DNA from: Parietichytrium sp. I65-24A
Lineage: Eukaryota > Sar > Bigyra > Thraustochytrida > Thraustochytriidae
NCBI GenBank assembly: GCA_012862575.1
Contig: BLSF01000097.1
Span: 1-64,000 of the forward strand
Direction: 5' to 3'
Length of the DNA: 64,000 bases
The position numbers were made by a program, and so were the translations under genes. Shown here piece after piece: positions 26,745 to 58,614 of this stretch. Positions within the stretch are counted from its first letter, which is position 1. Each line of letters begins with the position of its first letter. The notes beneath the pieces are model-generated. The model made no database searches, had not been told where the DNA came from, and was given only the letters and a program-made list of their open reading frames with translations.

Positions 26745-29700
26745 TCAGAGCCATGAGTCGGTCCACGAGTCATTTTGGAAAGGAAAAAGTGGAGATGGAG
26801 GGGTGGAAGGCACAGACGACGCCTTAGAAGGGCGCCTCATTGATTTCCGAGCCGATGCTTTGCGGGAGAGCCTGCGAATGTGAGTCGTGCTCTTTCTTCG
26901 AGCATCGATTTCTTCCTGCGTCAGGGTCGCTTGGTCATCCTTTTTCTTGTTGCTGGCGCCTGGGTCCAGCATAGGCAGCGGGGGCAATGCTGGAAGATAT
27001 TGCGTTGGGGGAATTGGAGGGCTTCCCACAAGGGTCATCTCCAGCGCGGAAGGCATTTCTTCCTCTAAAATTTGCTCAGAAGTCTTTTTGCGGGGCATTG
27101 TGGTTTTCTTTGGGGAGGACGGAGATGGAGACGGAGCGGCACCCCGCGTGAGGGACAAGCGCATGGAGACCCTCTGCGAGAGACGCTTCATGGCAGATTT
27201 CGGCTGCGGAGCGCGATCTTCTTCTGGCCCGACCGCCAGTCCTCCCTTGTCTTGCTCGACTACCTGGTCGAGCTGCTCCTCTTGATCGTCTTCCAAGCTT
27301 GAGCCGCTGTCCGAGCTCCATGCCCGGCGGCGAAGGCTTCTCTGTTGAATGCGGCCGAGGGCTTGCATCGCCGTCGCTGTTCTTGGATGCGCAGCACCAA
27401 AGATCTTGGTGCGAATGGCAACCGCGTCATCCTGCAGCTGAGATGCCTGATCCCACTGTTTCTTGAGTTGATGCACAATGACAAGCCTTTCGAGGGTCTC
27501 CGCTACTTTGGTGCTTTCGTCTCCAAACACCTTGGTGAACACATCAAGGGCGTCGTTGAGATGTGCTTCTGCGAGATCAAGTTTCTGCTGGCTTGTGAGA
27601 ACTGTGCCGAGGTGCAGCAACATTTCAGCGACAATCGGGTTCTGCATGTCGCTTCGCTGCTCAAAGACGGCCTTGGCCTTGTAATACCATCCGATGGCAT
27701 CTTCCAGGCGCGACATTGCCGTGAGTACAACGCCGATGCTGTCGTAAGTCTGGGCGACGCGAATGTCACTTTCGCTGTGAGCAACTCTGTAGATAACTAG
27801 AGCGTCGGTGTACGCTTTGAGAGCTCCGTCAAATTTACCCTGTGCGAAATAAACCTGCGCAAGTTTGCACTGCAGGTCCGCCACGTCTGAGTGTTCCTGG
27901 CCCAGCGCAGCTCGCTTAATCTCAATAGCAGCTTCAAGGGCGGTCTGGGCAGCCAAGAGGTTGCCAGAGTTGTGCTCGGTGGTTGCAATGCATATCAAGA
28001 TGCTGGCCAGCCGCAGGTCGTATCCGCCATACTTTTCCTGGTAGATATCAAGTACCTGGTTATAGAGGTCGAGGGCCTTGGCAAACTTTTCCATAGCTTC
28101 CTCCCACCGGCCCATGCCGGCAAGAACCTCGCCAAGGTGGTTGAGTGAGTTGGCCATGCTCTCGTGGCGCTCTCCGAGATTCTCCTTGAGGACCTGGACA
28201 GCTTCTTCGTGGGAGCGCTTTGCCTCTTGCCACTTGCCTTGGCCGTGCAGCGCGGCTCCGAGCTGTTTGAGCGTGAATGCAAACTCGTCCGAGCGACGAG
28301 TTCCTTGTTGCTTTTCGAGGATGTCCATGGCCTCTTTGTGGCTGGCGCTGGCCAGATCGAAGTTGCCGAGAAGGGCGTGCACGGCGCCAGATTGGTTGAG
28401 CGCGCTAGCGAGCAGAGCACTGTGCGAGCGGTTCACTTTGACCAATTTACGCGCGCCATCGGTGGCTTGCTCGGAGACCGAGAGGGCTTTTTGCAGGTTA
28501 CCTTCCTGAGCCAGCCGGGCGGAGGCAGCCACCATCAGTTCGCAGCACGCGGCGATGTCGACGCCGCTCTTGAGATTCTTGTTGAGCTTGCTGAGAAACT
28601 TTGGCAGCGAGGATGCGAACCAGGCTTCCAGCTTGGACCTGACGCGGCGGTTGATTTCTTCGTAGCCGCCCTCAACGTTGGCGGTGATCTCGGCGTCGAT
28701 GAGGTCGAAGTCCTGGTCGCGCGAGCAGGAAGAGGACCGGATGTCCACCAGCGGGAATGATGCCTGCGTGGTACGGAGAAAGTTGGCGGTAGACAGGTTG
28801 GCCTCGCGGAGTCCAATGGCCGACACGTCCAGCTCGCGCGACGCGTTGGCGATTTCCCAGAGGCACCACCTCCTGTGCAGTGGCTCGGGCATGGCCGACT
28901 CGTGCGATGGCTGCAGGAAGACCACCGTGCGCTCAAACCGCGCGAGGGCGTCCGCGGTGGCGTGCCCGATGAGCTCCTTGAGAGCGTCCGTGGGCGCGCT
29001 GCCCTCTTCCAGCGCCTCGATCCACGCCTGGTTGACGCCGAAAACGTCCAGCCAGAAGAAGCACTTGGCCGGGTCTCTGTTCCCGCAGCGCCGCAGCAGC
29101 GCCGCGCACATCTGCGCAAAGTTGGTGCTCCTGGCCGCCACCACGTACGTCCCTTCGAACTCCTCCCCCACCGCGCCGGGCTCCGACTTGCGCAGCACGT
29201 CCACGAAGCACTTCTTCTTGTCCGCCGCGCCAGGCCGCACCACATGGGTGCACACCTCCTGCAGCGTCCAGTCGGCGCCGGCCTTGTCGCGCTGCGAGGA
29301 CAGCCACGCGCCGCTCACGCCCCTGAACGCCCAGTGCCGCCGCTTCTTGCGCTGCAGCAGCATCCTCTGCGCGCCCTTCCGCCTCCCGCGCTCCTGCGCC
29401 CCCTGCCCCCCCTGCGGCTGCCCCTGCTGCTGCCTCTGCTGGGGTCCGGAACCGGAACCGGAACCGGAGCTGGAACTGGAACCGGAGCTGGAACCGGCCG
29501 AGGCGCCCGAGGAGGTGGAACCGGCCGCTGCGGCGCCACCGGTCCTCGCCGCGGGACCCGGGTTCCGGGTTCTGGCGCTGCCCACCGCGGCGAGCGCGCC
29601 AGTGGTGACCCCACCGGCGGCACTGCTAGTGGGTGCCGCGGGTGCCTTAAGCCGGGAACCCGACGCGGAACCCGACGCGGAACCCGAGGTGCGCAGAGGG

Positions 29701-31565
29701 TGGCTGCGAGTGGCGGCGGTGGCGAGGGGGTTGAGCGCGAGCGGCGCCTCCAAGTCCGCGGGCGAGAGCGCAGCGGGAGGCGCGTGGCGGGTCTGCGGCG
29801 CAGGGGTGTGCGCGCCGTGGCAGGGCTGGTGCCGACTCTCCGGCGCGAGCGCAAGAGGCGACGGGCGCGTGAACACCGCGAAGACATGGGTGCGCGGCAG
29901 GGTGCGCGACGTGCGCAAGAGACTGAGCAGTGGCGACTTGAGCCCCTTGGACACCTTGCCGCTGGAGGCCTTCGCGCCGTTGGAGGCGGTGGAGGCAGGA
30001 GTGGAGAGGAGCAACGGCTGGTGCTGCGAGGCCTGCAGAACGCCGTCGAGGGCGGAAATGGACAAGCGTTTCTCGCGAGGAATTAGCGAGGACCGGAACG
30101 CTGGCTCAGGGTCAGGCGTCTCGTGGAGCATGAGACTCAGCTCGTGCAGAGGTTTGACGTAGACCGATGCCAAGCTTGGACGCGAGGAGACTCGATTGGA
30201 TTCCATCCACGCCGGAAGCTTGTGCACCTGAGCCTCACGAAGCACAGCGCAGCCGTGCAAGTACTTGCTGAAATTTGGGATGTACTCCAAGAGACCGCTT
30301 TCGGTCAAGGTGTAGAGCCACAGTGGGAACAGAGGAGACTGGTCCTTGTCCGTGTAGAACGCGTTGTCAATACTCAAGATGCCATAATCCATGTCCACAC
30401 TGGTGACAGGCGAATCTTCATCGAGTGGTGTGAACCACGAACTGCCCACGGGTCCATCAACTGCTGGCGCTGGGTCCTCCGGGACGATCGTCACCAAAGA
30501 GTCCAGACATATACTGGTGTTTGGGAGCCTTGAAGTGTCGAACTTGAGCCGTCTGTAGATCGTGCGCAGGACCGGGCGGAGCCGCTTGGACTCAATTTGC
30601 TCCTGAACCTCGATAAAAAGCTTCTCAACGCGGTTTAGCTCGTCACGAGACTGCCCGGCCGTGCGCATTTCCTGCAGTCTGTCGAGCACCGTATACTCGC
30701 CTCTTAGGAAGGGGAGAACGAACTGCTCTCGCAATGTAAACGACTCCTTCACAACTGTTCCCGCTGATGCAGAATAAAATGCTCGCTCCACGTACACGAG
30801 CTCTGGCTTTGGGGTTGCAAACCATCGAAAGCGAATTCCCTCCGAAAAGGGGTTCGTGAGCACGCGATTGTGGTACGCCTCCAGTTGCACATTGTCAAAG
30901 TAAACCACGGAGCAAATTTGCGACTCCCCTTGCATAGCTGGCACTACAGCCTGGTCCTGCCGGCGTCTGGGAAGATGCTCGAGTAGCAACGCCTGCACCT
31001 CCTGTAGGTTTTCTCGCGGAACCAGGAATGACTTTCTGCTTTTCGCAAGGTTTATGGAAACATGCGGCGAAATGTATCCCAGAGCAGAGTCTGCGAGAAC
31101 CGCGTGCTGGAGCCGTTTCAGAAGCGGAAGTAAGTTCTCGCATCCTTTCTGAACCCAAAATTGCTGTGATATTGAATGGTACACGAACTCCCGAAGCTCT
31201 TCCAGCGTCTCGCCCTCCAGGTTCCGCAGAAACAACTCTAGACTATACATATTTGTGTTGAAGAACCTCTCAAGGCGAATAAACTCAGACACCAGCTCAG
31301 CGATCTTGTCCTCGACTTTCGTGTCCTGGCGTTTTTCGAGCCTTGTCTCGACCTCGCCCAGCAAGGATTCCGTCTGGGCCTGCAGGTCGAGCCACATTTT
31401 GCTTGTCCAATCGTCGAGCTTGGACATGGACCGCTCCATGGCTTTGCGGACGCCATCCGCCGAAGCGCCGTCGGCCACCATCTTCGCCCAGCTCTCCACA
31501 GCGAGGTAGTGACCTTTCCATTTCAGGTCGGTGTTGGCACCAAGAAACTCCACCGCGGGATGCAT
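26745..31565 (-). CDS. SPX/VTC-like domain, TIR/HET-like domain and kinesin-light-chain TPRs in one protein
   Basis: The 1606-residue protein is one uninterrupted exon with ATG at 31565. Residues 1-150 are helical and weakly SPX-like (LKWKGHYLAVESW; EFIRLERFFNTN). Residues 215-455 match the VTC polyphosphate-polymerase tunnel domain: SVVYFDNVQLEAYHNRV, EGIRFRWFA (R245, R247), VVKESF, LRTIYRRLKF and PNFSKYLHGCAVL. Several residues I recall as catalytic in yeast Vtc4 appear replaced (A262, S351, S398). Residues 500-745 are low-complexity. Residues about 760-945 carry CFFWLDVFGVNQ and RRWCLWEIANASRE, a protist domain I associate with TIR/HET-like proteins that precede TPRs. Residues 1004-1410 are about nine kinesin-light-chain-type TPRs. 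The tail is basic and disordered. The VTC and TPR calls are firm, the SPX and TIR-like calls tentative. It has no transmembrane segment, so it is probably a cytosolic sensor or scaffold. Confidence 0.85.
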   Translation of the reverse strand: MHPAVEFLGANTDLKWKGHYLAVESWAKMVADGASADGVRKAMERSMSKLDDWTSKMWLDLQAQTESLLGEVETRLEKRQDTKVEDKIAELVSEFIRLERFFNTNMYSLELFLRNLEGETLEELREFVYHSISQQFWVQKGCENLLPLLKRLQHAVLADSALGYISPHVSINLAKSRKSFLVPRENLQEVQALLLEHLPRRRQDQAVVPAMQGESQICSVVYFDNVQLEAYHNRVLTNPFSEGIRFRWFATPKPELVYVERAFYSASAGTVVKESFTLREQFVLPFLRGEYTVLDRLQEMRTAGQSRDELNRVEKLFIEVQEQIESKRLRPVLRTIYRRLKFDTSRLPNTSICLDSLVTIVPEDPAPAVDGPVGSSWFTPLDEDSPVTSVDMDYGILSIDNAFYTDKDQSPLFPLWLYTLTESGLLEYIPNFSKYLHGCAVLREAQVHKLPAWMESNRVSSRPSLASVYVKPLHELSLMLHETPDPEPAFRSSLIPREKRLSISALDGVLQASQHQPLLLSTPASTASNGAKASSGKVSKGLKSPLLSLLRTSRTLPRTHVFAVFTRPSPLALAPESRHQPCHGAHTPAPQTRHAPPAALSPADLEAPLALNPLATAATRSHPLRTSGSASGSASGSRLKAPAAPTSSAAGGVTTGALAAVGSARTRNPGPAARTGGAAAAGSTSSGASAGSSSGSSSSSGSGSGSGPQQRQQQGQPQGGQGAQERGRRKGAQRMLLQRKKRRHWAFRGVSGAWLSSQRDKAGADWTLQEVCTHVVRPGAADKKKCFVDVLRKSEPGAVGEEFEGTYVVAARSTNFAQMCAALLRRCGNRDPAKCFFWLDVFGVNQAWIEALEEGSAPTDALKELIGHATADALARFERTVVFLQPSHESAMPEPLHRRWCLWEIANASRELDVSAIGLREANLSTANFLRTTQASFPLVDIRSSSCSRDQDFDLIDAEITANVEGGYEEINRRVRSKLEAWFASSLPKFLSKLNKNLKSGVDIAACCELMVAASARLAQEGNLQKALSVSEQATDGARKLVKVNRSHSALLASALNQSGAVHALLGNFDLASASHKEAMDILEKQQGTRRSDEFAFTLKQLGAALHGQGKWQEAKRSHEEAVQVLKENLGERHESMANSLNHLGEVLAGMGRWEEAMEKFAKALDLYNQVLDIYQEKYGGYDLRLASILICIATTEHNSGNLLAAQTALEAAIEIKRAALGQEHSDVADLQCKLAQVYFAQGKFDGALKAYTDALVIYRVAHSESDIRVAQTYDSIGVVLTAMSRLEDAIGWYYKAKAVFEQRSDMQNPIVAEMLLHLGTVLTSQQKLDLAEAHLNDALDVFTKVFGDESTKVAETLERLVIVHQLKKQWDQASQLQDDAVAIRTKIFGAAHPRTATAMQALGRIQQRSLRRRAWSSDSGSSLEDDQEEQLDQVVEQDKGGLAVGPEEDRAPQPKSAMKRLSQRVSMRLSLTRGAAPSPSPSSPKKTTMPRKKTSEQILEEEMPSALEMTLVGSPPIPPTQYLPALPPLPMLDPGASNKKKDDQATLTQEEIDARRKSTTHIRRLSRKASARKSMRRPSKASSVPSTPPSPLFPFQNDSWTDSWL

Positions 31566-33840: not shown

Positions 33841-35214
33841 ATGGACCGTTACGGGCAGCGCGGTGTGTCTGCGGACAAGGAGGATGTGCACAACGCCATC
33901 AAAGACGTTGACAAAGGACTTGTGCCGGGAGCCTTTTGCAAGATTGTAGCAGACTTCGAGTCGCCTGAACACGGTATGTCGTGATGCGTTGCTCTTTGGT
34001 GGCAAATGGAGCCGCGTGTGGTCTTGCTTGACGCTCACTCACATCTCCCATCTTTTGTTGCTTGCACAGGTCTGATTATGCATGCTGATGGTGCCGGAAC
34101 GAAAAGCAGTCTTGCGTACATGTATTGGCGTGAGACTGGCGATTTGTCAGTTTGTAAGTGAGGTTGTTATTAGGAAGGCTGCCCCAAAAGAAAGGATGCA
34201 CAGTTTCTCACAATTGGTCCGGTTGTGATATTCTGCACAGGGAAAGGGATTGCGCAAGACGCCATCGTCATGAACATCGATGATCTTTTGTGCGCTGGCG
34301 CTGTAGGGAAGATTTTCGTCTCCAGCACAATCGGGCGGAACAAGCACCTCATCCCTGGTGAGGTCATCTCGGCTCTGATCAAAGGAACCGAGGAGGTTCT
34401 GGAAGATCTCCGACAGCACGGAATCGAGGCAATTTTAACTGGTGGGGAGACTGCTGATGTAGGCGACCTCGTGCGAACAGTCATTGTCGACTCCACGGTG
34501 ATTTCTCGAATCAAGCTTACGGATGTGATCGACAACGCCCGCATCAAGCAAGGGAACGTGATTGTTGCACTTGCTTCCTTTGGGCAAGCTTCTTACGAAA
34601 CTGAGTACAATGGTGGCATGGGATCAAATGGTCTTACCAGCGCTAGGCACGACGTCTTTAAAAAGGAGCTTGCCGAGCGCTACCCTGAGAGTTTTGATCC
34701 GTCCGTATCGAACGACTTGGTGTACTCCGGAACCATGGGCCTGCGGGACCCAGTGAAAATTGATGAGAACGGCACGACCATGGAGGCAGGAAAGCTGGTG
34801 CTATCACCTACTCGCACGTATGCGCCCATTGTGAAGAAAATCTTTGAGCAAATTTCTCGCTCCAAAATATGCGGTATGATTCACGTGAGCGGAGGCGCCT
34901 TGACAAAAGTCCTTCACTTTTCGGCGCCTGGCCTTCATATCATCAAGGACGACTTGTTTGACATCCCGCCTTTGTTCCAGCTCATTCAGGAGCAGTCGCA
35001 GACGCCTTGGGCTGAAATGTACAAAACGTTCAACTGCGGTCAGCGCATGGAATTCTACGTCGAAGATATGGAGGCCGCGGAGCAAATCATCAGTATCTCA
35101 AAGAGCTTTGGTGTGGGAGCTAAAGTGATCGGACGGGTCGACGCTAATGCAGACGCTGACAAGAAGAGACTGACGATCAAAAGCAAGTATGGGGAATTTG
35201 AATACGAAAAGTGA
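33841..35214 (+). CDS. purM: Phosphoribosylformylglycinamidine cyclo-ligase (AIR synthase), Bacteroidetes type
   Basis: There are three exons, 33841-33973, 34070-34153 and 34241-35214, with GT-AG introns of 96 and 87 bases, giving 396 residues. The enzyme uses ATP to close FGAM to AIR in purine synthesis. Seen motifs are RYGQRGVSADKEDVHNAIK at the start, MHADGAGTKSS (phosphate-binding region, exon 2), QDAIVMNIDDLLCAGA, LTGGETADVGDLVRT, YNGGMGSNGLTSARH and HVSGGALTKVLHF. The wording follows the roughly 390-residue PurM form I know from Bacteroidetes, not the AIRS domain of eukaryotic trifunctional GART. The splices restore Gly and Trp codons exactly. It is stand-alone, with no GARS or GART frame beside it. 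I see no plastid transit peptide. Transfer from bacteria followed by intron gain is likely but needs a tree. Confidence 0.93.
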
Positions 35215-45262: not shown

Positions 45263-45441
45263 AAGGAGGCAGACACTGTTGCATGATCTGGGCCTGGTGT
45301 AAGCATATTTCACACGGCCCGGAGCTCTCTGGAATTTGTTTGGAGTTGTAAGAGTATTTCTTTTCAGCTCTGGCATAAAGCGGGGATCGTGAGAGGCGGT
45401 AGCTCAGAGTTGTTCTTGTGGGACCGGGTTTGTCAAGAGAG

Positions 45442-48400
45442 ATGGAGCAGGGCGGCGGCAGGAAGATGGAGTCGAACAGTGTCAACTTGGCGTTTCAATA
45501 TCCAAAGAAAGAAGAGGAGGAGTCCAAGGCAAAGGAGTTGGCACGCACCGCGAGCGACGGTAAAATTGGAAAGCTGAAGCGCAAATTCCCAAAGAAGCTT
45601 CCTAGCATTGCCGGGCAAACTGCATCGACAGCCAATCTTTTGCCAGAGTTCACCTTTCCGAAGGAAGACGGCGACACCAACCACGGTAGACGGGGAAAGA
45701 ATGGAGCTTCACAGGACAATACACAACATGGCGCTGCGAGAGCTAGCCGCAAATCCATAATGGAGCGATTCTCCGACGAGAGGGCCGAACAAGAAGGGAC
45801 GGCTGCAAGCTCCGCGTTCAAAGTGAAGCCAGTGCGCCAAATCGACTTTGGACTGCTGAACAAGCACCGAAGCAATAAAGTGCAAGTGGTCGAGGCGTTG
45901 CCATTCTCCGAGAGCGTGGAGCACCTTCCCAAGCTGCACACCGCCGAAGACGTGATCGCCTTTTTCGCCCGAAACCGAGAGGAGCCAGATGCAGCATTGT
46001 TTGCAGGGGAAGCAAATTTTGCCCCGCTCAAGTTTGTCGCCTTGAATCGTGTCGACAGCCGTTTGCGGTATCTCCCCTATGACTTGCTTGTCGCAGAGCC
46101 TCAACAGATCAACCCAAACGAATACTATATCATGACTTCCACGTCCGTAATGCGATTTGGAGGGCCGATGTCTGAGCAGGGGCCGTCACACAGCAGCAGC
46201 CTACGTGAGGATCAGCTTGAAACAATTCAGCGCTCCATGCCGACAAGGCTCGGAAAGGCTGCTCCAACTGAAATAATGGAAATGTCACGATGGATACACG
46301 AGTCCACATGCTTCCGCGTCATAGCCAATTTGGGGACGTTTAAATACTATTTGGAGCGCAAGTCGATGCAGAAGTGGCGGGCCGCGGTGAGGTACATCAA
46401 GTTTTGCCGAGTGAAGAAGAAGGTGGAGGACCAGTTGCTATTTTTGAAACCGCACTACAGCACAGCATTTGAACATGCTAATCGCGAGCTGCAGTCGCTG
46501 CTCGACAAAAGTGCATTTTGTTTGGAGACAAGGCGATCAACGAATCTTGCTAGCTTTGCACAAAAGCAGATTGAAAACCTAGAGGGTAGGATACTGGCGC
46601 AAATTGCCCAGACTGGACAAAATATCGGACACGGAGTCGTTCGAGCAATTCAGCTTTTGAAGAAGGACTTGAGAGCTTTGAACGAGCAGCTGGTAAGAAA
46701 TAAGAGCACCATTAACAATGCAACAAAGAGCATGGTGGAGGCTAGAGAGGAGAGGGAGATGATAGTCAAGAAGATTCAGAATATCGAACACGATCTTGGG
46801 CGTCTTCGAGAGCTTTGCCGCTTGATCAACTACATGCTCCTTGGCAAGCTACTCCAATACATTATTGACTCCTACGCGATTCTGGTCGACTTTGTGGCGA
46901 ATCCGGGCGCTACTCAAGGCGGGGGCGTCTTTCGCGTCATGCTAGAGTTGGCTTTGGGAGCAAGCAAGCAGCTCGCTGACCAGCCCCCGCCAACGTCCCC
47001 GAAGAGCCCAAAAGCAGGAAGCGCATCTCCGAAACGATCCCCTAAGAAGAAGAAAACTGCCGAGGATAGGTCGGAGGCTCCTTTGGACGAGGGTGAGGCG
47101 AATGCACAAGCAGTGATATATGTGTTGGACCCGTCTGAAAACGAAATGTTCAACACTTTTACAGATGTATGCACGAAATTGCTGGAGACCGTAGAGTCTT
47201 TCCCATTGCTGATGGTCCCAGATAAGGTGTTGTCGGTCAAAGACATGCCAATATACGACCCGGATTGCTCGCGTGCCCTTCGGGACAATCGTATGAGCGA
47301 TATGACCAGCTTGACTGCAACTTGTGCAGATTTTGAGTCACTCAACTACACCTTTGGCAAACTTTACCAGTCCATCGAACGGTCTTACAAAGACGCAAAT
47401 ACGTTTGGAGAATCATTTGCACAGAAATTCGAGGAGATCTTTCTTGGGCTGACGTCTTTTGATAGTGAAAACTATGCAGCTGACGACCCCGACTACCTGA
47501 CGATCAAGAAATCCCTCAACATGTATTCGGATTGGGGTAAGGAGGTGTCCAACATGAAGCTGGAGACAAAGTGCGGCCCTTTGATGATACTTGAGACAAG
47601 GAGCTTCAAAGATAAACTGCTTGGCCTGTTGCTCACCCCCATGAACACTTGCAAAGACTGTTTGGAACAGCTCGGTCGACAGAAAGTTCAGGAGCTGATA
47701 GAGAGCTATCGCACAGCCTGTAACGAGCTAGAAATCGATGCGAACGCTCAACTTGGCGCACACTCGGCCTACGTTGAAAAGTACAACAGTCTGCACTTGG
47801 AGCAAAAGTTCCTCGATCGCAATTTCGAACTGACTCAAGACATTTACGACCTCATGAAGACATTCCAGATCAAGCCAGCCATTGAAGACGCTGCGAGGCT
47901 AGAGGAAGTAGCCGAGGAAAAGATCCGATTCGAGGAAAGCCTTGCTTTGGCCCGGAATCACATCAGTGCACAAAACAATGCTTACGTTGACAAATTGAAG
48001 AACGGGATCAAATCCATGGAAGAGTTCTGCGACCAGATTACTTTGCAGCTCTCTCGCGAACCGTTCAATGATCCGTCTCAAAAAGCGGAGGATATGGTGG
48101 AGCAAATAACACGTCTGCAGTCTCGGTGGGAGTCATACTTCGAGAAGGCGAAACAATTCGCTCATTGGATGGAGTTACTTGTAGGCGGGAAGAAACGCCC
48201 AGAAGACAAGCCAACTGTGACGTACAATTACGAAGTCGGCTCGGTTGAAAACTGTCGTATGATTCTTGAAAAGCGGCTCAGTGTGTGGGGCTGCTGGGAT
48301 AGGTGGAATAACGACTTTTCTAGGTGGTGGGATTCAGATATATCCGTTCTGCTCAACCCAGAGAAAAATGAGGATGGCTTGACCGGCCCACAGCTAGAGC

Positions 48401-51400
48401 GCGTTGTGGATGAATATTTTCAAGAGTGCGTGAACTACAATCGCCGGTATAAAGGCGACGAGGTTGTTGAATGTCTCCTGAAAACTATCAGGGAGACTCG
48501 AACAAAGACGTCGTTCATGGTCATGTTTGGCCATCCAAGCTTAATGCCTCGCCACTACCAGGCGATGTATGTTGACATATTCAAGCAGCCTTTCGTTGAT
48601 GCACAAGGAACAAAGCACCTGCCTACGCTTGAGGAGGACCCTGCAGTAGCTCCCAGCGAGGAGCCTGACGGAAGTACAGAGCCCTCGCAAGACCCTGCCG
48701 CCGATGACAACCCCCAGAGAGACGCGGAAGGAGATGAGGAACCAGATCCCACCATTCCCACAATTTCTGAAATGGAGTCGTTTGGATTGTTCAACCCTGA
48801 GAATACCGAAGCCCTGGAAGAGATTTGCGGAGCAGCTGCAAAAGAGTATTCGCTAATGAAGGCGCTTGACAAAATGGAGGAGGACTGGGTACCGCTCAAG
48901 TTTCCAACTTTGGAATACAAGGACACTGGCACTTCAATCTTCAGGTCAATGGATGAGATCGAACAGACGTTGGATGATCAGCTCGTTCGCACTCAGGCTA
49001 TGCGTAGTTCACGATATATCAAAACTATGGAGGCGAGGTGCATCAAGTGGGAGAATATGTTGAAACAGCTTGAACAAATTATCTCCAATAGGCTGACCAT
49101 GCAGGGAACCTGGTTGTACCTGGAGCCTATTTTTTCGAGCGCTGATATTTGCAAACAGATGCCTTCCGAAGCAAAGATGTTTAAAAGCGTGGACAAGCTA
49201 TGGCGGGACTCTATGGAGAGGACGGTGGAAAACCCTGCCGTTTTAGCAGTGCTGGAGCAGGAGGGGCTGTTGCCGAAGTTGGAGCGTGCGAATGAGATGT
49301 TGGACGAAATTCAGAAAGGACTCGCAGACTACTTGAACGCCAAGCGGATCTTCTTCCCGAGATTTTTCTTTCTCTCTAACGAAGAGCTTCTGGAGATCTT
49401 GAGCGAGACGAAGGACCCAAAGAGGGTGCAGCCTCATTTGATCAAATGCTTTGAAGGGATCAACTCCCTCGAGTTCTCTAACACGATGGACATAAAGGCC
49501 ATGATCTCCTCCGAGGGCGAGGTGGTGCCCTTCGCCTATGACGATGTGAAGGAAAAAGTAATCAACCCCAACGAAGCTGGAGGATGCGTCGAAATCTGGC
49601 TCGACCAGATTCAGACGGTGATGAGAAAAACCGTAGCGCATGAATTCGACCTTGCGATGGTAGACTACCCAAAGCGGAAGCGAACAGAGTGGCTTCAGGA
49701 CTGGCCAGGCCAGGTCGTCCTCGGCGTGACGCAAACGTTCTGGACCCAAGAGTGCACTACTGCTATCTCCACTGGACCAGAGGCTACCTCTAAATACGCT
49801 GAGTACCTTACGGAGTGTATTAATGACATCATCAAAATGGTCCGAGGCAAAATCCCAAAGCTGGTGCGAAAGACCGTAAGTCCTTTGGTTGTCCTCGATG
49901 TGCACGCCAGGGATGTGACAGCCGAGCTCGCCAGGATCGGCACCTCAGACCCAAATGATTTTGACTGGCTGAGCCAACTTCGCTATTACTGGACCGAGGG
50001 CCGTTTCAGCGCTCTTTCGGGGGAGCCAGGGTCCGTTATTTGTCGCATGATCAATGCTGAACGACTGTACGGATTCGAGTACCTCGGAAACTCCATGAGG
50101 CTTGTTATCACTCCACTTACCGACAGATGCTACCGAACCTTGATGGGTGCCATTCACCTCGATTATGGTGGCGCTCCAGCCGGTCCGGCCGGAACCGGTA
50201 AGACAGAGACGACGAAGGACCTTGGCAAAGCTATCGCGATCCAGTGCGTTGTCTACAACTGCAGTGACTCTCTTGACTACAAGGCAATGGGCAAGTTCTT
50301 CAAGGGTTTGGCAGGTACTGGGGCGTGGGCTTGCTTTGACGAATTCAACCGCATTAATCTGGAGGTGCTCTCCGTCGTGGCGCAACAAATCCTGACTATT
50401 TCGCGTGCCAAAATTGCTCGAGTAGAGACCTTCGACTTTGAAGGTGAGATCATCAAGCTGAGAGTTACATGCAATGTGTTTATCACCATGAATCCAGGAT
50501 ATGCAGGGCGACAAGAGCTTCCCGACAATCTCAAAGCCTTGTTTCGCGATGTGGCTATGATGGTCCCGGACTATGCAATGATTGGCCAGATCATCTTGTA
50601 CAGTATGGGGTACCTGGAAGGTTTCAAGCTGGCCAAGAAGATTGTTATGACGTACAAGTTGTGCTCGGAGCAGCTCTCCAGCCAGTCGCACTATGATTAC
50701 GGGATGAGGGCCGTAATGGCTGTACTTCGCGCCGCGGGAAACCTCAAGCAACAGCAGCCAGAGGAAGATGAGAACATCTTGTGTTTGCGCTCAATTATTG
50801 ATGTCAACTTGCCCAAATTTCTTGCGCCAGATGTTCCTCTCTTTAATGGCATCGTTTCTGATTTATTTCCTGGTGTCAAACTACCCGAGACAGATTACAC
50901 AGTCATGGACGACTGCATCCGCGAAGTGTGCAAAGAATGGAGGCTCGACCCGACGGACTACTTCCTCACCAAGGTGCATGAGGTGTACGAGATGATGATT
51001 GTGCGGCATGGCTTCATGGTCGTAGGCCTTCCCTTCGCCGGCAAGACCACCTCCTTGAAAATGCTTCAAGAAGTTCTCACGAGGCTTCATTTGCGCGACT
51101 TGGAAAACCCAAAGTGGACCAAGGTGCACACTTGCATTCTCAATCCCAAATCCGTTACCATGGGCCAGCTTTACGGAGAGTTTGATCCCGTCTCCCATGA
51201 ATGGACGGACGGAGTGCTTGCGATCGGATATCGCAACTTCTCGGGCAACCCGCCAAAAATCGGAGACGTGGACGATCGTAAATGGGTGTGGTTTGACGGC
51301 CCTGTCGATGCTATCTGGATTGAAAATATGAACACCGTGCTCGATGACAACAAGAAGCTTTGTCTTATGAACGGCGAAATGATAGTCATGAGCCCAACAA

Positions 51401-54400
51401 TGAGCATGATTTTTGAGCCGATGGACCTTGAGGTCGCTTCACCGGCTACTGTATCGCGTGTCGGTGTCATCTACATGGAGCCGTTCAGGGTTGGTTGGTT
51501 GCCCCTTCTTAAGAGCTGGCTGATGAAATATGGCACTTTTAGGATGGAGGAGAGAACGAAGGCTGCGGAGGAAGCGGCGACAGGGGAAGAAGAAGAAGAA
51601 GAAGACGCCGACGCGACCGAGGAGACGGATGCTGCTCCTCCAATCGACGACGAAGGGGAAGCCAAAACATTTAAACTCTCTAGCTTTCACACGGAACTGG
51701 TGATGTCGCTGTTTCTGTGGCTCGTGGATCCCGCAGTGTGTTTCATGCGCAAAAATTGTCTGGCATTTGTTCCCACCCTCGATCAGACACTTGTTGTTGG
51801 ACAGCTTCGCCTCATGGAAGGGATGTTTTTAGAAGCTGCTCAAAATGACCTTGAGATTGACGACATGATGGTCGAGAACACCTTCCTATTTTCACTAGTC
51901 TGGTCGGTAGCAGGTGTGATCGATACGGCTAGCCAGATTCTCTTCGATGGGTTCGTGCAGAGGTTCATGAAAGACTGGAAGGTGATTGACGAGCCAGAGC
52001 TCAAACCTGTGCATACTATGTTGATGCTCCGAAACTGGGCTCTGCCAACTTTTCCCAAAGGTGACTGTTCCTCCGCTGGATTTGTGTTCGAAGACCCCAT
52101 TCCAGAAGGTGGGTCGCTTTTCGACTATTGCTTTGTAGGAGGTGGGCACAAGAACATTGGAAGTGCACAAAAGGAGAAGACTCCAAAGACTTGGATGCAG
52201 TGGACGGACACGTTCGCACTTCCAGAGCTCAGCACGTCTGCGGAGTTCAGCGCGTTGGTTATCCCCACCAAGATCACGGCTCAAATGGAGCGCATTCTGA
52301 TGCTTTACTTGATTAATGAATTTCCTGCTCTTGTAGTTGGACCCACCGGCACGGGAAAATCTATGTTTGTGAGCCGTATCCTAAGTCAAATGCTGGATCA
52401 GAACGTATTCAAAACCGTGGACGTGGCTTTCACGGCGAAAACAACAGCCAATCAAACTCAGCTCATCGTAGACTCTAAACTGGAGAAACGCCGAAGGGGA
52501 ATCTACGGACCCCCGATAGGATGTAAGAGCGTCGTCTTTGTCGACGATTTCAACATGCCTGAGATTGAAGAGTATGGCGCTCAACCACCAATTGAAATCT
52601 TGAGACAGCTTGTCGACAACGGTGGATGGTATGATCTTGCTGAGAAGGACTTTCATCGAATCGTCGACACCCAGCTCGTTGCAGCAATGTGCCCTCCTGG
52701 TGGAAGCCGAAATCATATTACACCTCGCATGGTGAGGCACTTTGGGATCTTTTGCGTTTCCAGCTTTGACGGTGACACTATGAAGGCAATCTTCAACACA
52801 ATTTTAGGTTGGCACATGACCTCACAAAAGATGCCCCAGGACGTCGCCAATCTTGCTGACTCTTTGGTCGAAGCAACCCTGGCCATCTACAAGAGGGCGA
52901 TATCTAGCTTGTTGCCCACGCCGCTCAAGTCACACTACACCTTTAATCTTCGTGACTTTTCCCGGATTGTTCAAGGGGTCATGCTGGTCTCAAACCACGA
53001 AGGCTTTCAGGCATCTTCGTGCAAGCGTCTCTGGATTCACGAAACAACGCGGGTAATGATGGATCGACTTATAGATCAAGATGATCGCGAGTGGTTTATA
53101 AATGCCATGGATGATGTCCTTAAAACGATATTGGACGAGCCGGGAGGCATAAATTCTCTAATATCGCATCTCCTTCCTGAAGGAAAAGAGGTGCAAAAGG
53201 CCGAGGACGGGCTCGAAGCATTGAGGAACCTATTCTTTGGAAACTACGCGAATCCGGGAAGTTCAACGAGGCCGTACGTGGAGATTCCAGACGTTCCGTC
53301 GCTTGTGCCTCTGATGCAGGACTACCTCGAGATGTACAATTCGGAGAGCAAGAATCCTATGGGCTTGGTTATGTTCCAATTTGCCATAGAGCATGTTTCA
53401 CGAATTGCGCGCATTCTGGCGATGCCGAGGGGGAACATTCTCTTAGTTGGAGTCGGTGGTAGTGGTAGACAGTCTTTGACTCGACTAGCAGCGTTTGCTT
53501 CTGATTATTCCCTCATGCAGGTCGAACTCACGAAGAATTACACGGAGGTAGAGTGGCGTGAAGATCTGCAAGAAGTCCTCAAGGGGGCTGGAACTGGACC
53601 GAAGCCTATGGTCTTCCTCTTCGCCGACACGCAAGTCAAGTACGAAAGTTTCATTGAGGATATCAACTGCATGCTTAATACCGGGGAAGTGCCCAATCTC
53701 TTCCCTCTGGACGCCCGAATGGAGATCTTGGACCGCATGCAGAAGATCGCAAAAGAACAAGGTGTCAGGGACGCCAGCTTGCCAGAACTTTGGCGGATGT
53801 TTGTGGACCGTGTGCGCTCACGGCTCCACGTAGCGCTTGCCTTCAGTCCGATCGGGAGCACCTTTAGAGACCGCTTGCGCAAGTTCCCTTCGCTTGTGAA
53901 TTGCTGCACGATCGATTGGTTTTTCGCCTGGCCTGAGGATGCTCTTGTTGCTGTTGCCAGAACCTTTTTGGCAGACGTCGAATTGGACAGTCAAGTCCGA
54001 GAAGATATTGTGCGTATTTGCCAGTTCATGCACACTTCTGTATCCGACTTGAGTGAAAAGATGCGGGCAGAACTGCGTAGAATCAACTACGTCACCCCCA
54101 CTTCATACCTTGAAATCATTCGCACCTTCAAGGACTCTCTCGGTAAATGTCGTGAAGATATCAACCAGCAAAGACGCAGATACGAGATAGGTTTGGAAAA
54201 GCTTGCATTTGCAGCCGACCAGGTCGGCACAATGCAAACGGAGTTGACAGACCTCATTCCCGTTCTCGAAACATCAAAGAAGGAGACGAACGTCTTGATG
54301 GCTGAGATCGAGAAGAAGCTCCCCGGAGTCGAAGCCATGAAGAAAACGGTCAGTAGCGAAGCCGCAATTGTCCAGGTGCAAGCCGATGAATGTGCTGTCA

Positions 54401-57400
54401 TGAAAAGTGAGTGCGAGAATGACCTCGCGGAAGCCATCCCACTGCTGGAGGACGCCATGAAGGCATTAGACACGCTAAAAGCATCCGACATTGGAGAAGT
54501 GAAAGCGATGAAGAATCCGCCTTCTGGAGTGGTGCTTGTTATGACTGCCGTTTGCCAGATGATGGGAGTAAAGGCCGAGAAAATCAAAGATCCGGCTGAT
54601 GCCACCAAGAAAATTGAGGATTACTGGGGTCCGTCCAAAAAACACTTGCTCGGCGATCCGAAATTCCTGCAGAGGCTCAAGGAGTACGACAAAGACAATA
54701 TTGCGGAGAAAGTCATTCAGATTTTGGAGACTAAATTTATGAATAATGAGGACTTTGAGCCAGCCAAGATTAAACAAGCGTCCGTAGCAGCCTTTGGGCT
54801 CTGCAAGTGGGTCCGAGCAATGTTTGCGTACGACAAAGTCGCCAAAGTAGTGGCGCCAAAGAAAGCTAAATTGGCTGAAACGGAATCAAAACTTGCGGAG
54901 ACGATGGCCACATTGAACAGCAAGAAAGCAGAGCTCCAGCAGGTCGTAGATGAGCTCGGAGCCCTGGAGGCCAACCTCGATGCTGCCAAGTCAAAGAAGG
55001 CTAAGCTGGAAAACGACGTAGATCTTTGTGAGAAGAAGTTGGTAAGGGCCAAGCAGCTTATCGATGGTCTTGGCGGGGAAAAGTCTCGGTGGACTAGCAA
55101 CGTGGAGTCCTTGAAAGGTGAATACGTTGAGCTCACCGGTAATGTACTCATCTCAGCTGGTGTGATCGCTTATCTCGGCGCGTTTACAGCTGATTATCGA
55201 GAAGAGGTTTGTGCGAAATGGACCAATTTGTGCAAGCAGAAAAAGATTCCTTCCAAGGAGAATCCAACGTTGTTTGAGACGCTGGGGGACCCTGTGAAGG
55301 TCCGCAACTGGAATGTGAATGGCCTTCCAACAGACAATTTCTCTGTGGACAACGCCATTATCCTCTTCAACTCGCGGCGTTGGCCACTCATGATTGATCC
55401 GCAAGGTCAGGCAAACAAATGGATCCGCAACTTGGAGCAAGAGAACGACTTGAAGGTGATCAAGCTCTCTGACCCCACCTATATGCGAACGCTAGAGAAT
55501 GCCATCCAGTTCGGTAATCCGGTCATGCTTGAAAATGTTCTCGAGGAGATAGATCCTTCGCTAGAGCCCGTTCTCCAGCAGGCAACATTTAAGCAGGGCG
55601 GTGTGCTCTGCATCAGGCTTGGTGACAGCGTTGTCGAATATTCAGATTCGTTTCGATTCTACATCACCACGAAGCTTCGAAATCCGCACTATCTGCCAGA
55701 GATCAGCGTTAAAGTGTCACTCCTGAACTTTATGATTACCCCGCAAGGTCTTCAGGACCAGATGCTTGCCAAAGTAGTGAAAGCAGAAAAACCCGACTTG
55801 GCCGCAGAGAAGGAAAGACTCATTATTGAGGGCGCAGAGAACGCTTCCAAGCTGAAAGAGTGCGAGGATAAAATACTGTACATTTTGTCCTCGTCGTCTG
55901 GCAATATTCTGGAGGATGAATCTGCCATCGATACTCTGAAATCTTCGAAGAGTATTTCTGACGAAATCAAGGAGAAGCAAGCGGTGGCTGTCGTGACCGA
56001 GCAGAAGATCGACAAGGTGCGCGCAGGTTACGTCCCAGTTGCATTCCATGCCCAGATCCTGTACTTTTGTATTGCCGACCTTGCAAATATCGAGCCTACG
56101 TACCAATACGCTTTAGAGTGGTTTGGCAGCTTGTTCCTCAAGTCAATCGACGAGAGTGAACAGTCTGATGACCTAGAAACGCGCTTGGGAATATTGTGCG
56201 ACTACTTCACATATGCACTGTACCAAAACGTGTGCAGAAGCTTGCTAGAGAAGGACAAGCTACTTTTTTCTTTTCTGCTCTGCGTGCGTCTGCTATTTAG
56301 CCGAAACGAGATCGATCAACAGGACTGGATGTTTCTATTAACAGGAGGAGTAGCACAAGATAATCCTTCGCCCAATCCGGCCCCAGAATGGCTGTCGGAA
56401 AGAGGATGGGGAGAAATCTGCCGTCTCTCCGTCCTGCCTTCTTGTCAGGGGCTGATGGAGGACTTTGCCAAACGAACTGTCGAGTTTCGCGCAATTTATG
56501 ATTCCTCGGACGCGCACCTTGTTCACCTACCGGCGCCTTGGCACGAAAAGCTCAACTCGTTTCAGCGAATGCTGGTGCTTCGTTGCCTGAGGCCGGATAA
56601 GGTGGGACTGAGCGTGCAGAACTTCATTATTGAGAAAATGGGGGAGAGATTTGTGAGCCCACCAACATTTAACTTGCGTGCATGCTACGATGATGCGTCG
56701 TACATGGTCCCCCTCGTGTTCGTCCTTAGTGCAGGGTCAGACCCAATGACACAGTTGATCAAGCTATCTGAGGAGATTGGGGCCCGCATCGACAGCATAT
56801 CTCTTGGTCAAGGTCAAGGCCCTAAGGCGGAAGCGATGATTGCAAAGGCACAAAACGCGGAGAATGAGAAGGTGTGGGTTGTTGTACAGAATTGTCATTT
56901 GGCTGTCAGCTGGATGCCAGCGCTGGAGAGGATCGTTGAGCAGACCGACCCTGCGACCTGCAATCGACAATACAGGCTTTGGTGCACCACATATCCTACG
57001 CCTGACTTTCCGGTTTCCATCCTTCAAAACAGCGTAAAAATGACCCTCGAGCCACCTCGCGGGCTCCGAGCCAGTATCTATGCATCCTATGTCAGCGATC
57101 CTATTTGCGATCCTTCGTTTTTTGGCTCAGTGATAAAGAACGAAGGCAAGGACTGGAGGCGTCTTCTATTTGGGCTGTGCTTTTTCCACGCTCTCGTGCA
57201 GGAGCGGCGAAATTTTGGCGCACTAGGCTGGAACATTCCGTACGAGTTCAGCGCTAGTGACATGATCATTTCTGTCAAGCAGTTGGCCATGTTTTTGGAG
57301 CTGTACCAAGAGCCTTTCAAAGCTTTGTTATACTGCACTGGCGAAGCCAACTATGGTGGAAGAGTCACAGATGACAAGGATCGCCGTCTGCTGTTGACCA

Positions 57401-58614
57401 TTTTGAAGAGATTCTACAACGAGGGTATGTTGGAAGAGTCGCATGAAATCGCCGAAGGGTATCCCCTTCCGCCAGACGGTTCGTACGCAGATTACCTCAA
57501 GTTCATCACCCAGATACCCCTGGTCGACAAGCCTGCGGTTTTCGGGCTACACGACAACGGTAATATTACGAAAGGCCAAAACGAAACACAGCAGCTTTTG
57601 CAGAGCATCTTGCTCACCCAGAAGGTCGCTGCGGGTTCCAGCGGAAATGAGGATGAGGAAGGAGAGGAAGAGGAGAAAGGCGATGCACAAGAAGAAAAGA
57701 GTGAAAAGGAGGAATCGAAGGCAAAGTCAGCGCCTCCGAAGGAAGAAGACGTGATATTTGACGTAGCCTCTGCAGTGCTCAGCAAGCTCGAAAGCCGGTC
57801 GTTTGACATGGCTCTTGCGGAGCTCAAGTACCCTGTCAAATGGGAGGAGTCTATGAACACTGTGCTCACGCAGGAATGTAACAAGTTCAATGGCCTCTGC
57901 AAAGTAATTGTGGACTCTTTACGAGAACTCAAAAAGGCTGTTCGGGGTTTTGTGGTGATGTCTGAGGATTTGGAAAAGGTTGGGCGGTCCCTGTTCTTAG
58001 GAACGGTTCCAAGCAAATGGCTAGGTGCCTCATATCCAAGCTTAAAGCCTTTGGCTTCTTATGTTGCTGACCTTTGCCGGCGTCTTGACTTTTTGCAAAA
58101 CTGGCTTGATAATGGCATGCCGCCAGTGTATTGGCTGAGCGGTTTCTTCTTCACACAAGCATTTTTAACGGGTACTCTGCAGAATTTTGCGCGCAAGTAT
58201 TCAATTCCTATCGATGAAGTGGACTTCGATTTTGCAATGCTTGACAAGCGCGAAGACGGTTACTCAGAACCCCCCGCTGACGGAGCGTACGTCTACGGCT
58301 TATACGTTGAGGGTGCGCGATGGGATTTGGAGAATCACGTTCTCGCGGACTCCCTCCCAAAAATTCTTATATCCGATGCGCCAGTGATGCATCTTCAGCC
58401 AATGCAAAAAGCGAACATCAAACCTGTGCACTTTTATAATTGCCCGGTTTACAAAACTTCCGCGCGTAGGGGTATCCTGTCCACAACTGGCCACAGTACC
58501 AACTTCGTCATGTACATGAGATTTCCGATCCCTAGTGAGGCGAGCGACCCCCGTTCTGAAGCTGACTACTGGGTAATTGCAGGTGTCGCTTGCTTAACTT
58601 CCACAGACGATTGA
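45442..58614 (+). CDS. Axonemal dynein heavy chain, single-headed inner-arm type
   Basis: The 4390-residue protein is one 13.2-kb exon with ATG at 45442; the frame's earlier start is GTG. It is the motor of an inner dynein arm in a motile flagellum. Walker A loops are AAA1 GPAGTGKT (1581-1588), AAA2 GLPFAGKT (1862-1869), AAA3 GPTGTGKS (2300-2307) and AAA4 GVGGSGRQ (2670-2677). CFDEFNRINLEVLSVVAQQ is the AAA1 Walker B. A stalk coiled coil surrounds the microtubule-binding domain (about 3020-3120, GLCKWVRAMFAYDKV). The C-terminal domain ends in a DD, as usual. The wording around AAA2 (NPKSVTMGQLYGEFD) and AAA4 fits the DNAH3/DNAH7/DNAH12 group. Human members are about 4000 residues; the excess is low-complexity, mostly acidic insertions near residues 517-553, 1067-1104, 2042-2075 and 4067-4103. 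All four P-loops look intact. Confidence 0.97.
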   Translation: MEQGGGRKMESNSVNLAFQYPKKEEEESKAKELARTASDGKIGKLKRKFPKKLPSIAGQTASTANLLPEFTFPKEDGDTNHGRRGKNGASQDNTQHGAARASRKSIMERFSDERAEQEGTAASSAFKVKPVRQIDFGLLNKHRSNKVQVVEALPFSESVEHLPKLHTAEDVIAFFARNREEPDAALFAGEANFAPLKFVALNRVDSRLRYLPYDLLVAEPQQINPNEYYIMTSTSVMRFGGPMSEQGPSHSSSLREDQLETIQRSMPTRLGKAAPTEIMEMSRWIHESTCFRVIANLGTFKYYLERKSMQKWRAAVRYIKFCRVKKKVEDQLLFLKPHYSTAFEHANRELQSLLDKSAFCLETRRSTNLASFAQKQIENLEGRILAQIAQTGQNIGHGVVRAIQLLKKDLRALNEQLVRNKSTINNATKSMVEAREEREMIVKKIQNIEHDLGRLRELCRLINYMLLGKLLQYIIDSYAILVDFVANPGATQGGGVFRVMLELALGASKQLADQPPPTSPKSPKAGSASPKRSPKKKKTAEDRSEAPLDEGEANAQAVIYVLDPSENEMFNTFTDVCTKLLETVESFPLLMVPDKVLSVKDMPIYDPDCSRALRDNRMSDMTSLTATCADFESLNYTFGKLYQSIERSYKDANTFGESFAQKFEEIFLGLTSFDSENYAADDPDYLTIKKSLNMYSDWGKEVSNMKLETKCGPLMILETRSFKDKLLGLLLTPMNTCKDCLEQLGRQKVQELIESYRTACNELEIDANAQLGAHSAYVEKYNSLHLEQKFLDRNFELTQDIYDLMKTFQIKPAIEDAARLEEVAEEKIRFEESLALARNHISAQNNAYVDKLKNGIKSMEEFCDQITLQLSREPFNDPSQKAEDMVEQITRLQSRWESYFEKAKQFAHWMELLVGGKKRPEDKPTVTYNYEVGSVENCRMILEKRLSVWGCWDRWNNDFSRWWDSDISVLLNPEKNEDGLTGPQLERVVDEYFQECVNYNRRYKGDEVVECLLKTIRETRTKTSFMVMFGHPSLMPRHYQAMYVDIFKQPFVDAQGTKHLPTLEEDPAVAPSEEPDGSTEPSQDPAADDNPQRDAEGDEEPDPTIPTISEMESFGLFNPENTEALEEICGAAAKEYSLMKALDKMEEDWVPLKFPTLEYKDTGTSIFRSMDEIEQTLDDQLVRTQAMRSSRYIKTMEARCIKWENMLKQLEQIISNRLTMQGTWLYLEPIFSSADICKQMPSEAKMFKSVDKLWRDSMERTVENPAVLAVLEQEGLLPKLERANEMLDEIQKGLADYLNAKRIFFPRFFFLSNEELLEILSETKDPKRVQPHLIKCFEGINSLEFSNTMDIKAMISSEGEVVPFAYDDVKEKVINPNEAGGCVEIWLDQIQTVMRKTVAHEFDLAMVDYPKRKRTEWLQDWPGQVVLGVTQTFWTQECTTAISTGPEATSKYAEYLTECINDIIKMVRGKIPKLVRKTVSPLVVLDVHARDVTAELARIGTSDPNDFDWLSQLRYYWTEGRFSALSGEPGSVICRMINAERLYGFEYLGNSMRLVITPLTDRCYRTLMGAIHLDYGGAPAGPAGTGKTETTKDLGKAIAIQCVVYNCSDSLDYKAMGKFFKGLAGTGAWACFDEFNRINLEVLSVVAQQILTISRAKIARVETFDFEGEIIKLRVTCNVFITMNPGYAGRQELPDNLKALFRDVAMMVPDYAMIGQIILYSMGYLEGFKLAKKIVMTYKLCSEQLSSQSHYDYGMRAVMAVLRAAGNLKQQQPEEDENILCLRSIIDVNLPKFLAPDVPLFNGIVSDLFPGVKLPETDYTVMDDCIREVCKEWRLDPTDYFLTKVHEVYEMMIVRHGFMVVGLPFAGKTTSLKMLQEVLTRLHLRDLENPKWTKVHTCILNPKSVTMGQLYGEFDPVSHEWTDGVLAIGYRNFSGNPPKIGDVDDRKWVWFDGPVDAIWIENMNTVLDDNKKLCLMNGEMIVMSPTMSMIFEPMDLEVASPATVSRVGVIYMEPFRVGWLPLLKSWLMKYGTFRMEERTKAAEEAATGEEEEEEDADATEETDAAPPIDDEGEAKTFKLSSFHTELVMSLFLWLVDPAVCFMRKNCLAFVPTLDQTLVVGQLRLMEGMFLEAAQNDLEIDDMMVENTFLFSLVWSVAGVIDTASQILFDGFVQRFMKDWKVIDEPELKPVHTMLMLRNWALPTFPKGDCSSAGFVFEDPIPEGGSLFDYCFVGGGHKNIGSAQKEKTPKTWMQWTDTFALPELSTSAEFSALVIPTKITAQMERILMLYLINEFPALVVGPTGTGKSMFVSRILSQMLDQNVFKTVDVAFTAKTTANQTQLIVDSKLEKRRRGIYGPPIGCKSVVFVDDFNMPEIEEYGAQPPIEILRQLVDNGGWYDLAEKDFHRIVDTQLVAAMCPPGGSRNHITPRMVRHFGIFCVSSFDGDTMKAIFNTILGWHMTSQKMPQDVANLADSLVEATLAIYKRAISSLLPTPLKSHYTFNLRDFSRIVQGVMLVSNHEGFQASSCKRLWIHETTRVMMDRLIDQDDREWFINAMDDVLKTILDEPGGINSLISHLLPEGKEVQKAEDGLEALRNLFFGNYANPGSSTRPYVEIPDVPSLVPLMQDYLEMYNSESKNPMGLVMFQFAIEHVSRIARILAMPRGNILLVGVGGSGRQSLTRLAAFASDYSLMQVELTKNYTEVEWREDLQEVLKGAGTGPKPMVFLFADTQVKYESFIEDINCMLNTGEVPNLFPLDARMEILDRMQKIAKEQGVRDASLPELWRMFVDRVRSRLHVALAFSPIGSTFRDRLRKFPSLVNCCTIDWFFAWPEDALVAVARTFLADVELDSQVREDIVRICQFMHTSVSDLSEKMRAELRRINYVTPTSYLEIIRTFKDSLGKCREDINQQRRRYEIGLEKLAFAADQVGTMQTELTDLIPVLETSKKETNVLMAEIEKKLPGVEAMKKTVSSEAAIVQVQADECAVMKSECENDLAEAIPLLEDAMKALDTLKASDIGEVKAMKNPPSGVVLVMTAVCQMMGVKAEKIKDPADATKKIEDYWGPSKKHLLGDPKFLQRLKEYDKDNIAEKVIQILETKFMNNEDFEPAKIKQASVAAFGLCKWVRAMFAYDKVAKVVAPKKAKLAETESKLAETMATLNSKKAELQQVVDELGALEANLDAAKSKKAKLENDVDLCEKKLVRAKQLIDGLGGEKSRWTSNVESLKGEYVELTGNVLISAGVIAYLGAFTADYREEVCAKWTNLCKQKKIPSKENPTLFETLGDPVKVRNWNVNGLPTDNFSVDNAIILFNSRRWPLMIDPQGQANKWIRNLEQENDLKVIKLSDPTYMRTLENAIQFGNPVMLENVLEEIDPSLEPVLQQATFKQGGVLCIRLGDSVVEYSDSFRFYITTKLRNPHYLPEISVKVSLLNFMITPQGLQDQMLAKVVKAEKPDLAAEKERLIIEGAENASKLKECEDKILYILSSSSGNILEDESAIDTLKSSKSISDEIKEKQAVAVVTEQKIDKVRAGYVPVAFHAQILYFCIADLANIEPTYQYALEWFGSLFLKSIDESEQSDDLETRLGILCDYFTYALYQNVCRSLLEKDKLLFSFLLCVRLLFSRNEIDQQDWMFLLTGGVAQDNPSPNPAPEWLSERGWGEICRLSVLPSCQGLMEDFAKRTVEFRAIYDSSDAHLVHLPAPWHEKLNSFQRMLVLRCLRPDKVGLSVQNFIIEKMGERFVSPPTFNLRACYDDASYMVPLVFVLSAGSDPMTQLIKLSEEIGARIDSISLGQGQGPKAEAMIAKAQNAENEKVWVVVQNCHLAVSWMPALERIVEQTDPATCNRQYRLWCTTYPTPDFPVSILQNSVKMTLEPPRGLRASIYASYVSDPICDPSFFGSVIKNEGKDWRRLLFGLCFFHALVQERRNFGALGWNIPYEFSASDMIISVKQLAMFLELYQEPFKALLYCTGEANYGGRVTDDKDRRLLLTILKRFYNEGMLEESHEIAEGYPLPPDGSYADYLKFITQIPLVDKPAVFGLHDNGNITKGQNETQQLLQSILLTQKVAAGSSGNEDEEGEEEEKGDAQEEKSEKEESKAKSAPPKEEDVIFDVASAVLSKLESRSFDMALAELKYPVKWEESMNTVLTQECNKFNGLCKVIVDSLRELKKAVRGFVVMSEDLEKVGRSLFLGTVPSKWLGASYPSLKPLASYVADLCRRLDFLQNWLDNGMPPVYWLSGFFFTQAFLTGTLQNFARKYSIPIDEVDFDFAMLDKREDGYSEPPADGAYVYGLYVEGARWDLENHVLADSLPKILISDAPVMHLQPMQKANIKPVHFYNCPVYKTSARRGILSTTGHSTNFVMYMRFPIPSEASDPRSEADYWVIAGVACLTSTDD

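Follow-up and report, generated by a model that had tools for sequence, protein, structure and literature searches.

We detected an open reading frame (ORF) that joins a VTC tunnel domain to a kinesin-light-chain-type TPR array in the thraustochytrid Parietichytrium sp. I65-24A (NCBI GenBank assembly GCA_012862575.1). It lies on the minus strand of a 64,000-nucleotide stretch of contig BLSF01000097.1 (positions 1 to 64,000, hereafter the window), and five of nine invariant tunnel residues are replaced in its VTC domain. We tentatively propose, at a little under an even chance, that the ORF encodes a single soluble protein. In it, an SPX-VTC module deprived of its polymerase chemistry and of its membrane anchor would serve as a binding module and be joined to a HET/TIR-motif domain and TPRs. 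The ORF is laid out as follows.

26745..31565, minus strand: single open reading frame, 1606 aa
31071..31565, minus strand: residues 1-165, probable degenerate SPX-like helical domain (weak, mixed evidence)
30198..31052, minus strand: residues 172-456, VTC tunnel domain with 5/9 invariant tunnel residues replaced (PF09359, Vtc4 matches, residue mapping)
29331..30080, minus strand: residues 496-745, basic Ala/Ser/Gly/Pro-rich linker, GC ~74% (composition, codon scoring)
28551..29330, minus strand: residues 746-1005, domain with WLDVFGVNQ and RRWCLWEI, HET/TIR-like by motif only
27261..28550, minus strand: residues 1006-1435, kinesin-light-chain-type TPR array (7 units by HMM, ~2 by eye)
26748..27260, minus strand: residues 1436-1606, Ser/Pro-rich basic tail (composition)

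From ATG to stop, the 1606 codons contain zero internal stops, in agreement with the single uninterrupted frame claimed in a preliminary description of this DNA. The absence of a membrane segment, also claimed there, was borne out: the highest 19-residue hydropathy in the 1606-aa protein is 1.34, compared with 2.85 and 2.16 in two membrane proteins encoded elsewhere in the window. The C-terminal membrane domain DUF202 (PF02656) was absent among the best 25 of 28 Pfam families found with the whole protein, down to an E-value of 1.1, and the linker alone had no Pfam match to it. A DUF202 exon hidden in the junction was ruled out, as none of the three minus-strand frames of the junction, linker included, contains a hydrophobic stretch (no hydropathy window above 1.35). 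A pseudogene was ruled out by the 1606 open codons together with the codon signal on either side of the linker. With no membrane anchor, the protein would act in the cytosol.

The gene content of the window is eukaryotic in character. Its other ORFs include those for an SLC12 transporter, a MINDY-3/4 deubiquitinase, a Got1/Sft2 protein and a JAB-domain protein. An ORF of 4398 residues without a stop (45418-58614, plus strand; ~13 kb) presumably encodes a dynein heavy chain. A PurM-like AIR synthase gene at 33841-35214 (plus strand) matches TIGR00878 below the cut-off of that profile (E 1.8e-27), and two short GT-AG introns with donors GTATGT and GTAAGT can be recognised in it by eye.

The VTC tunnel domain is genuine, as had been claimed. 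PF09359 (VTC) matches residues 179-442 with an E-value of 1.8e-30 (Pfam; 106.7 bits against a cut-off of 23), and the best PDB chain is yeast Vtc4 (E 4.4e-33, query residues 172-455), with the solved chains of yeast Vtc3 and Vtc2 matching more weakly (E 7e-16 to 3.4e-14). Residues 215-455, for which the preliminary description had made a structural match to Vtc4 decisive, align with the solved Vtc4 chains by sequence; the structure model obtained is poor (mean pLDDT 38.1). Relatives of this VTC part were found neither in the viral contigs nor in the plasmids searched, and yeast Vtc4 as a query had no match in the viral contigs. On the Pseudobutyrivibrio plasmid pNP95, a bacterial VTC-domain gene is flanked by a CotH kinase-family gene and a DUF4956 gene.

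The tunnel residues were compared in a MAFFT alignment with five references, namely yeast Vtc4, the sequence of which was confirmed against the solved chains, and four VTC proteins of bacteria, taken from named plasmid records. Twelve Vtc4 tunnel positions, picked in part from published residues, were examined. Nine of them are identical in all five references; the protein keeps four (R264, R266, R361, and K458 in Vtc4 numbering) and replaces K200 (S179), K281 (A262), R373 (S351), E426 (S398), and K428 (D400). At the three positions that vary among the references, R253 and K294 are kept and K455 is replaced. Unselected columns identical across the five references number 20, and the protein keeps 11 of them. 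Its tunnel domain carries 33 Lys and Arg versus 38 Asp and Glu (48 versus 44 in yeast Vtc4). The E426/K428 region is gapped: E426 falls on Ser in both a global alignment and MAFFT, K428 falls on A402 (global) or D400 (MAFFT), and the phmmer printout sets an Asp opposite E426 (by eye), so that the loss of E426 is alignment-dependent. A lysine, K178, adjoins the K200 position.

Because the equivalents of K200, K281, R373, E426, and K428 are replaced, polymerase activity is unlikely, and the residue mapping indicates that the domain is probably a pseudo-polymerase. The earlier label “polyphosphate-polymerase-like” is therefore to be read more weakly. The retention of R264, R266, R361, and K458 means that some anion binding by the domain may survive.

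The N-terminus (residues 1-165) probably represents a degenerate SPX domain, on weak and mixed evidence; like the loss of catalytic residues, it does not feature in the preliminary description. They precede the VTC domain, the place that SPX occupies in Vtc4, and residues 1-155 are mostly helical in a single-sequence structure prediction of low confidence (mean pLDDT 38.1). Global alignment to the yeast Vtc4 SPX gave a z of 2.8, with 10 of 1000 shuffles scoring as well. When the low-confidence model was compared with the PDB by Foldseek, 148 matches were obtained at E ≤10 and none at ≤0.001; the SPX of XPR1 ranked 2 and 4 (E 0.27 and 0.51), and its probabilities (0.69 and 0.60) were the highest among the best 50 of the 148. 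Pfam SPX had no match to residues 1-170 at E up to 10, in the same library in which the yeast Vtc4 SPX, as a control, scores E 1.6e-11. No SPX chain was matched in a PDB sequence search with the N-terminal region, and a three-sequence SPX profile comparison was not significant, with scores as high in 47 of 200 shuffles and 28 of 110 control segments.

With residues 1-165 as a probable SPX domain, the module would resemble the usual eukaryotic SPX-VTC pair minus the membrane anchor. The inositol-pyrophosphate binding residues of SPX are given as Y22, K26, K133 and K129, K132, K136 in the excerpted text of PMC9911596. In the global alignment this surface is mostly not conserved (K133N, K129L, K136G, and the conservative K132R), and the places of Y22 and K26 are taken by A36 and R40, where the alignment is poorly fixed. 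As the binding-surface lysines are mostly lost, the domain, if it is SPX, would not be expected to bind inositol pyrophosphate in the yeast manner. The “sensing or scaffolding” that had been suggested for the protein fits a dead enzyme fold, but direct sensing of phosphate finds no support in an SPX-like part from which most of the inositol-pyrophosphate-binding lysines are gone.

The region between the VTC domain and the middle domain, previously called a long Gly/Ser linker, does contain a Gly/Ser tract, but overall it is rich in Ala/Ser/Gly/Pro/Leu. It is basic (31 K+R versus 6 D+E), and residues 496-755 have a GC content of 74%. GC peaks locally in the segment at 29331-30080, with values reaching 0.80 per 100 bp against a window median of 0.50, and third-codon-position GC drops from 0.96 to 0.59 through the remainder of the ORF.

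We consider it quite probable that the VTC and TPR halves form a single protein. The main alternative, which is unlikely but would not greatly surprise us, is that two adjacent genes have been fused by chance or by an assembly error, the first an SPX-VTC gene with a lost or spliced 3′-end and the second a HET/TIR-motif TPR gene starting from near Met735 (MLLQRKKRRHWAF...), which would make a natural start. The regional GC peak at the linker is in keeping with this alternative. Among Markov sequences of linker composition (5000 trials each), the given frame was open in 30% at order 1 and 36% at order 2, and two opposite-strand frames are likewise open across the linker. Codon scoring, with a model trained on eight other ORFs of the window, gave no in-frame advantage at 29295-30044 (four scoring windows) and favoured the frame on both sides. 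Given this chance of openness and the missing codon advantage, the open frame across the linker is no proof of one transcript. Proteins that combine a domain with TPRs and carry no VTC are common in protists, which also counts for two genes. Public algal VTC4 models, moreover, are often truncated (PMC12526157, in excerpt).

Several features of the junction argue against two genes. There is no in-frame stop and, as described above, no membrane segment in the minus-strand frames. The junction also lacks an AT-rich 3′-end: it never falls below a GC of 0.59 per 100 bp, whereas the ORF's own 3′-end reaches 0.25 and 15 of 16 other ORF ends, the exception being that of the PurM-like gene, have a 100-bp block with GC ≤0.43 within 400 bp. 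These ends belong to 17 ORFs hand-picked from 27 (the ten left out were mostly antisense or overlapping), not all of which are proven genes, and some neighbours share one intergenic stretch. As a control, blocks with GC ≤0.43 occur in 63 of 519 windows inside the 16 other ORFs, 0 of 89 inside this ORF, and 456 of 1272 in the whole window. The repeats in the linker have periods that are mostly multiples of three (6, 9, 12, and 18 for those scoring at least 40, with two weaker repeats of periods 7 and 10), an argument for one gene that is only modest because a repeat in the nearby coding part (29085-29105, score 42) has a period of 11. The coding frame of the linker is Ala/Ser/Gly-rich, whereas Arg-rich sequences result from both of the other frames on the minus strand. 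No GTRNGT donor was found from residue 440 to residue 770 (four weaker GTRNG sites are present), which is weak evidence because the window has only 1.22 such donors per kb per strand.

There is no doubt about the TPR array. PF13424 (TPR_12; E 8.3e-54) and PF13374 (TPR_10; E 3.5e-37) each match seven stretches in Pfam, while TPR_NPHP3 matches with an E-value of 2e-27 but under its curated cut-off (96.6 versus 100 bits). The TPRs are in tandem and about 42 residues long, as in KLC-type TPR proteins. A self-built HMM recognised seven units, six of them its own seeds, and about two further units can be seen by eye, which makes the earlier count of about nine a fair one.

The domain between linker and TPRs is HET/TIR-like at the motif level only. 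WLDVF starts at residue 838 and RRWCLWEI at residue 898. We take WLDVFGVNQ (WxDxFxxNQ) and RRWCLWEI (WCxWE) to resemble HET and TIR blocks, with the Glu of WCLWE presumably sitting where TIR NADases carry their catalytic Glu. YVVAARS at residue 807, which we take to be the place of the first TIR strand, shows no TIR-like motif. With E-values up to 10 admitted, residues 755-1012 had no family match in Pfam, NCBIfam, PADLOC, or PHROGs, and the HET and TIR profiles of Pfam, DUF4062 included, were among those without a match. Against the PDB, residues 744-1035 matched only two designed proteins (E 0.3 and 0.39) and no natural chain, and the single-sequence structure model of the domain is poor (mean pLDDT 39.8). 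The “TIR/HET-like domain” of the preliminary description is thus upheld for both of its motifs, but its kinship is not extended beyond them by any profile or natural solved chain.

Searches for relatives of the middle domain found none in viral contigs (by homology and by pattern), in prokaryote genomes, or in plasmids, and these viral, prokaryote and plasmid collections yielded no relative that has the architecture of the whole protein. A BLASTP match of the domain to a 93-residue consensus (E 2e-12) was discarded as evidence because the consensus had been composed with this sequence in view; scanned over the viral contigs, the same consensus found no relative. In the literature, HET homologues are described from stramenopiles, haptophytes, choanoflagellates, green algae, and bryophytes (PMC4986451, in excerpt), and HET has been remotely linked to TIR (PMC4986451; PMC10890737, both in excerpt).

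A second alternative, which we regard as fairly unlikely, is a static scaffold, in which a dead VTC module and the TPRs bind proteins only, the middle domain being neither enzymatic nor involved in death signalling. The TPRs are indeed the strongest matches in the protein, the middle domain is without a profile match, and YVVAARS stands in place of a TIR-like motif. Against this, the WCLWE block is kept, with its Glu at the place of the catalytic Glu in TIR NADases. Of the published work, the failure of human NPHP3, a TIR-like protein with DUF4062, to hydrolyse NAD in one test (PMC13174449, in excerpt) speaks for the scaffold, and the described kinship of HET and TIR (PMC4986451) speaks against it. 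A more active role is decidedly improbable, namely a phosphate-state switch in which the dead SPX-VTC fold would sense polyphosphate or the VTC complex and gate a TPR-oligomerised, HET/TIR-type domain of NAD-consuming or death-signalling function; if true, it would link phosphate stores to an immune-like response within one polypeptide. That the protein is a soluble polyphosphate polymerase, functional despite an unusual active site, was rejected as very improbable indeed, since five of the nine invariant tunnel residues, K200, K281, R373, E426, and K428, are replaced and a published inactivated Vtc4 carries R264A/R266A/E426N (PMC9911596, in excerpt), even though the other four are kept and an Asp perhaps lies near the place of E426 in one alignment.

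In the reading that we prefer, that of a single soluble protein, the flexible basic linker would tether the SPX-VTC module to the HET/TIR-motif domain and the kinesin-light-chain-type TPR array. By analogy with yeast Vtc2 and Vtc3, which are homologous to Vtc4 but inactive (PMC12526157, in excerpt) and accompany it, the SPX/VTC part may dock on polyphosphate or on a VTC subunit that is active. That state could then be relayed, or partners gathered, by the TPRs together with the middle domain. Both the basic linker and the TPRs point to tethering and to the binding of partners.

The protein can be compared with several known systems. As in the SPX-VTC proteins (yeast Vtc4 and the inactive Vtc2 and Vtc3), a VTC tunnel domain follows a probable N-terminal SPX in identical order; unlike in these proteins, five invariant tunnel residues are replaced, the lysine clusters of SPX are mostly lost, the membrane domain is absent, and additional domains follow at the C-terminus. 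With HET/TIR domain proteins it shares blocks similar to WxDxFxxNQ and WCxWE, but residues 755-1012 have no Pfam match, and neither NACHT nor NB-ARC is among the best 25 of 28 Pfam families. Kinesin-light-chain-type TPR proteins and nephrocystin-3 are matched through the TPR_12, TPR_10, and TPR_NPHP3 profiles. The human DUF4062 TIR-like proteins listed in one paper include NPHP3 (PMC13174449, in excerpt), yet the present protein differs from it in a TPR_NPHP3 match below cut-off, an N-terminal SPX-VTC module, and a middle domain without a DUF4062 match. A HET/TIR-type domain that acts together with a metabolite-binding fold has, as an idea, a parallel in het-B of Podospora, which pairs a HET protein with a PII-like metabolite-sensor protein but consists of two genes, with an unrelated sensor fold and a tested role in incompatibility (PMC10890737, in excerpt).

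The named SPX classes in the excerpted sources comprise SPX alone or with EXS, MFS, RING, SLC, VTC, DUF202, or CitMHS (PMC12388464; PMC8233357), and a VTC-TPR or VTC-HET/TIR fusion was not found among the matches listed in the open-licence papers searched. The protein is a noteworthy domain combination and not a new kind of system. Known VTC domains either act as polyphosphate polymerases or accompany such a polymerase, without activity of their own, within a membrane complex. If our reading is true, a soluble, degenerate SPX-VTC module on a HET/TIR-motif TPR protein would represent a regulatory reuse of the fold and would suggest a route from the phosphate store of the cell into protein signalling.
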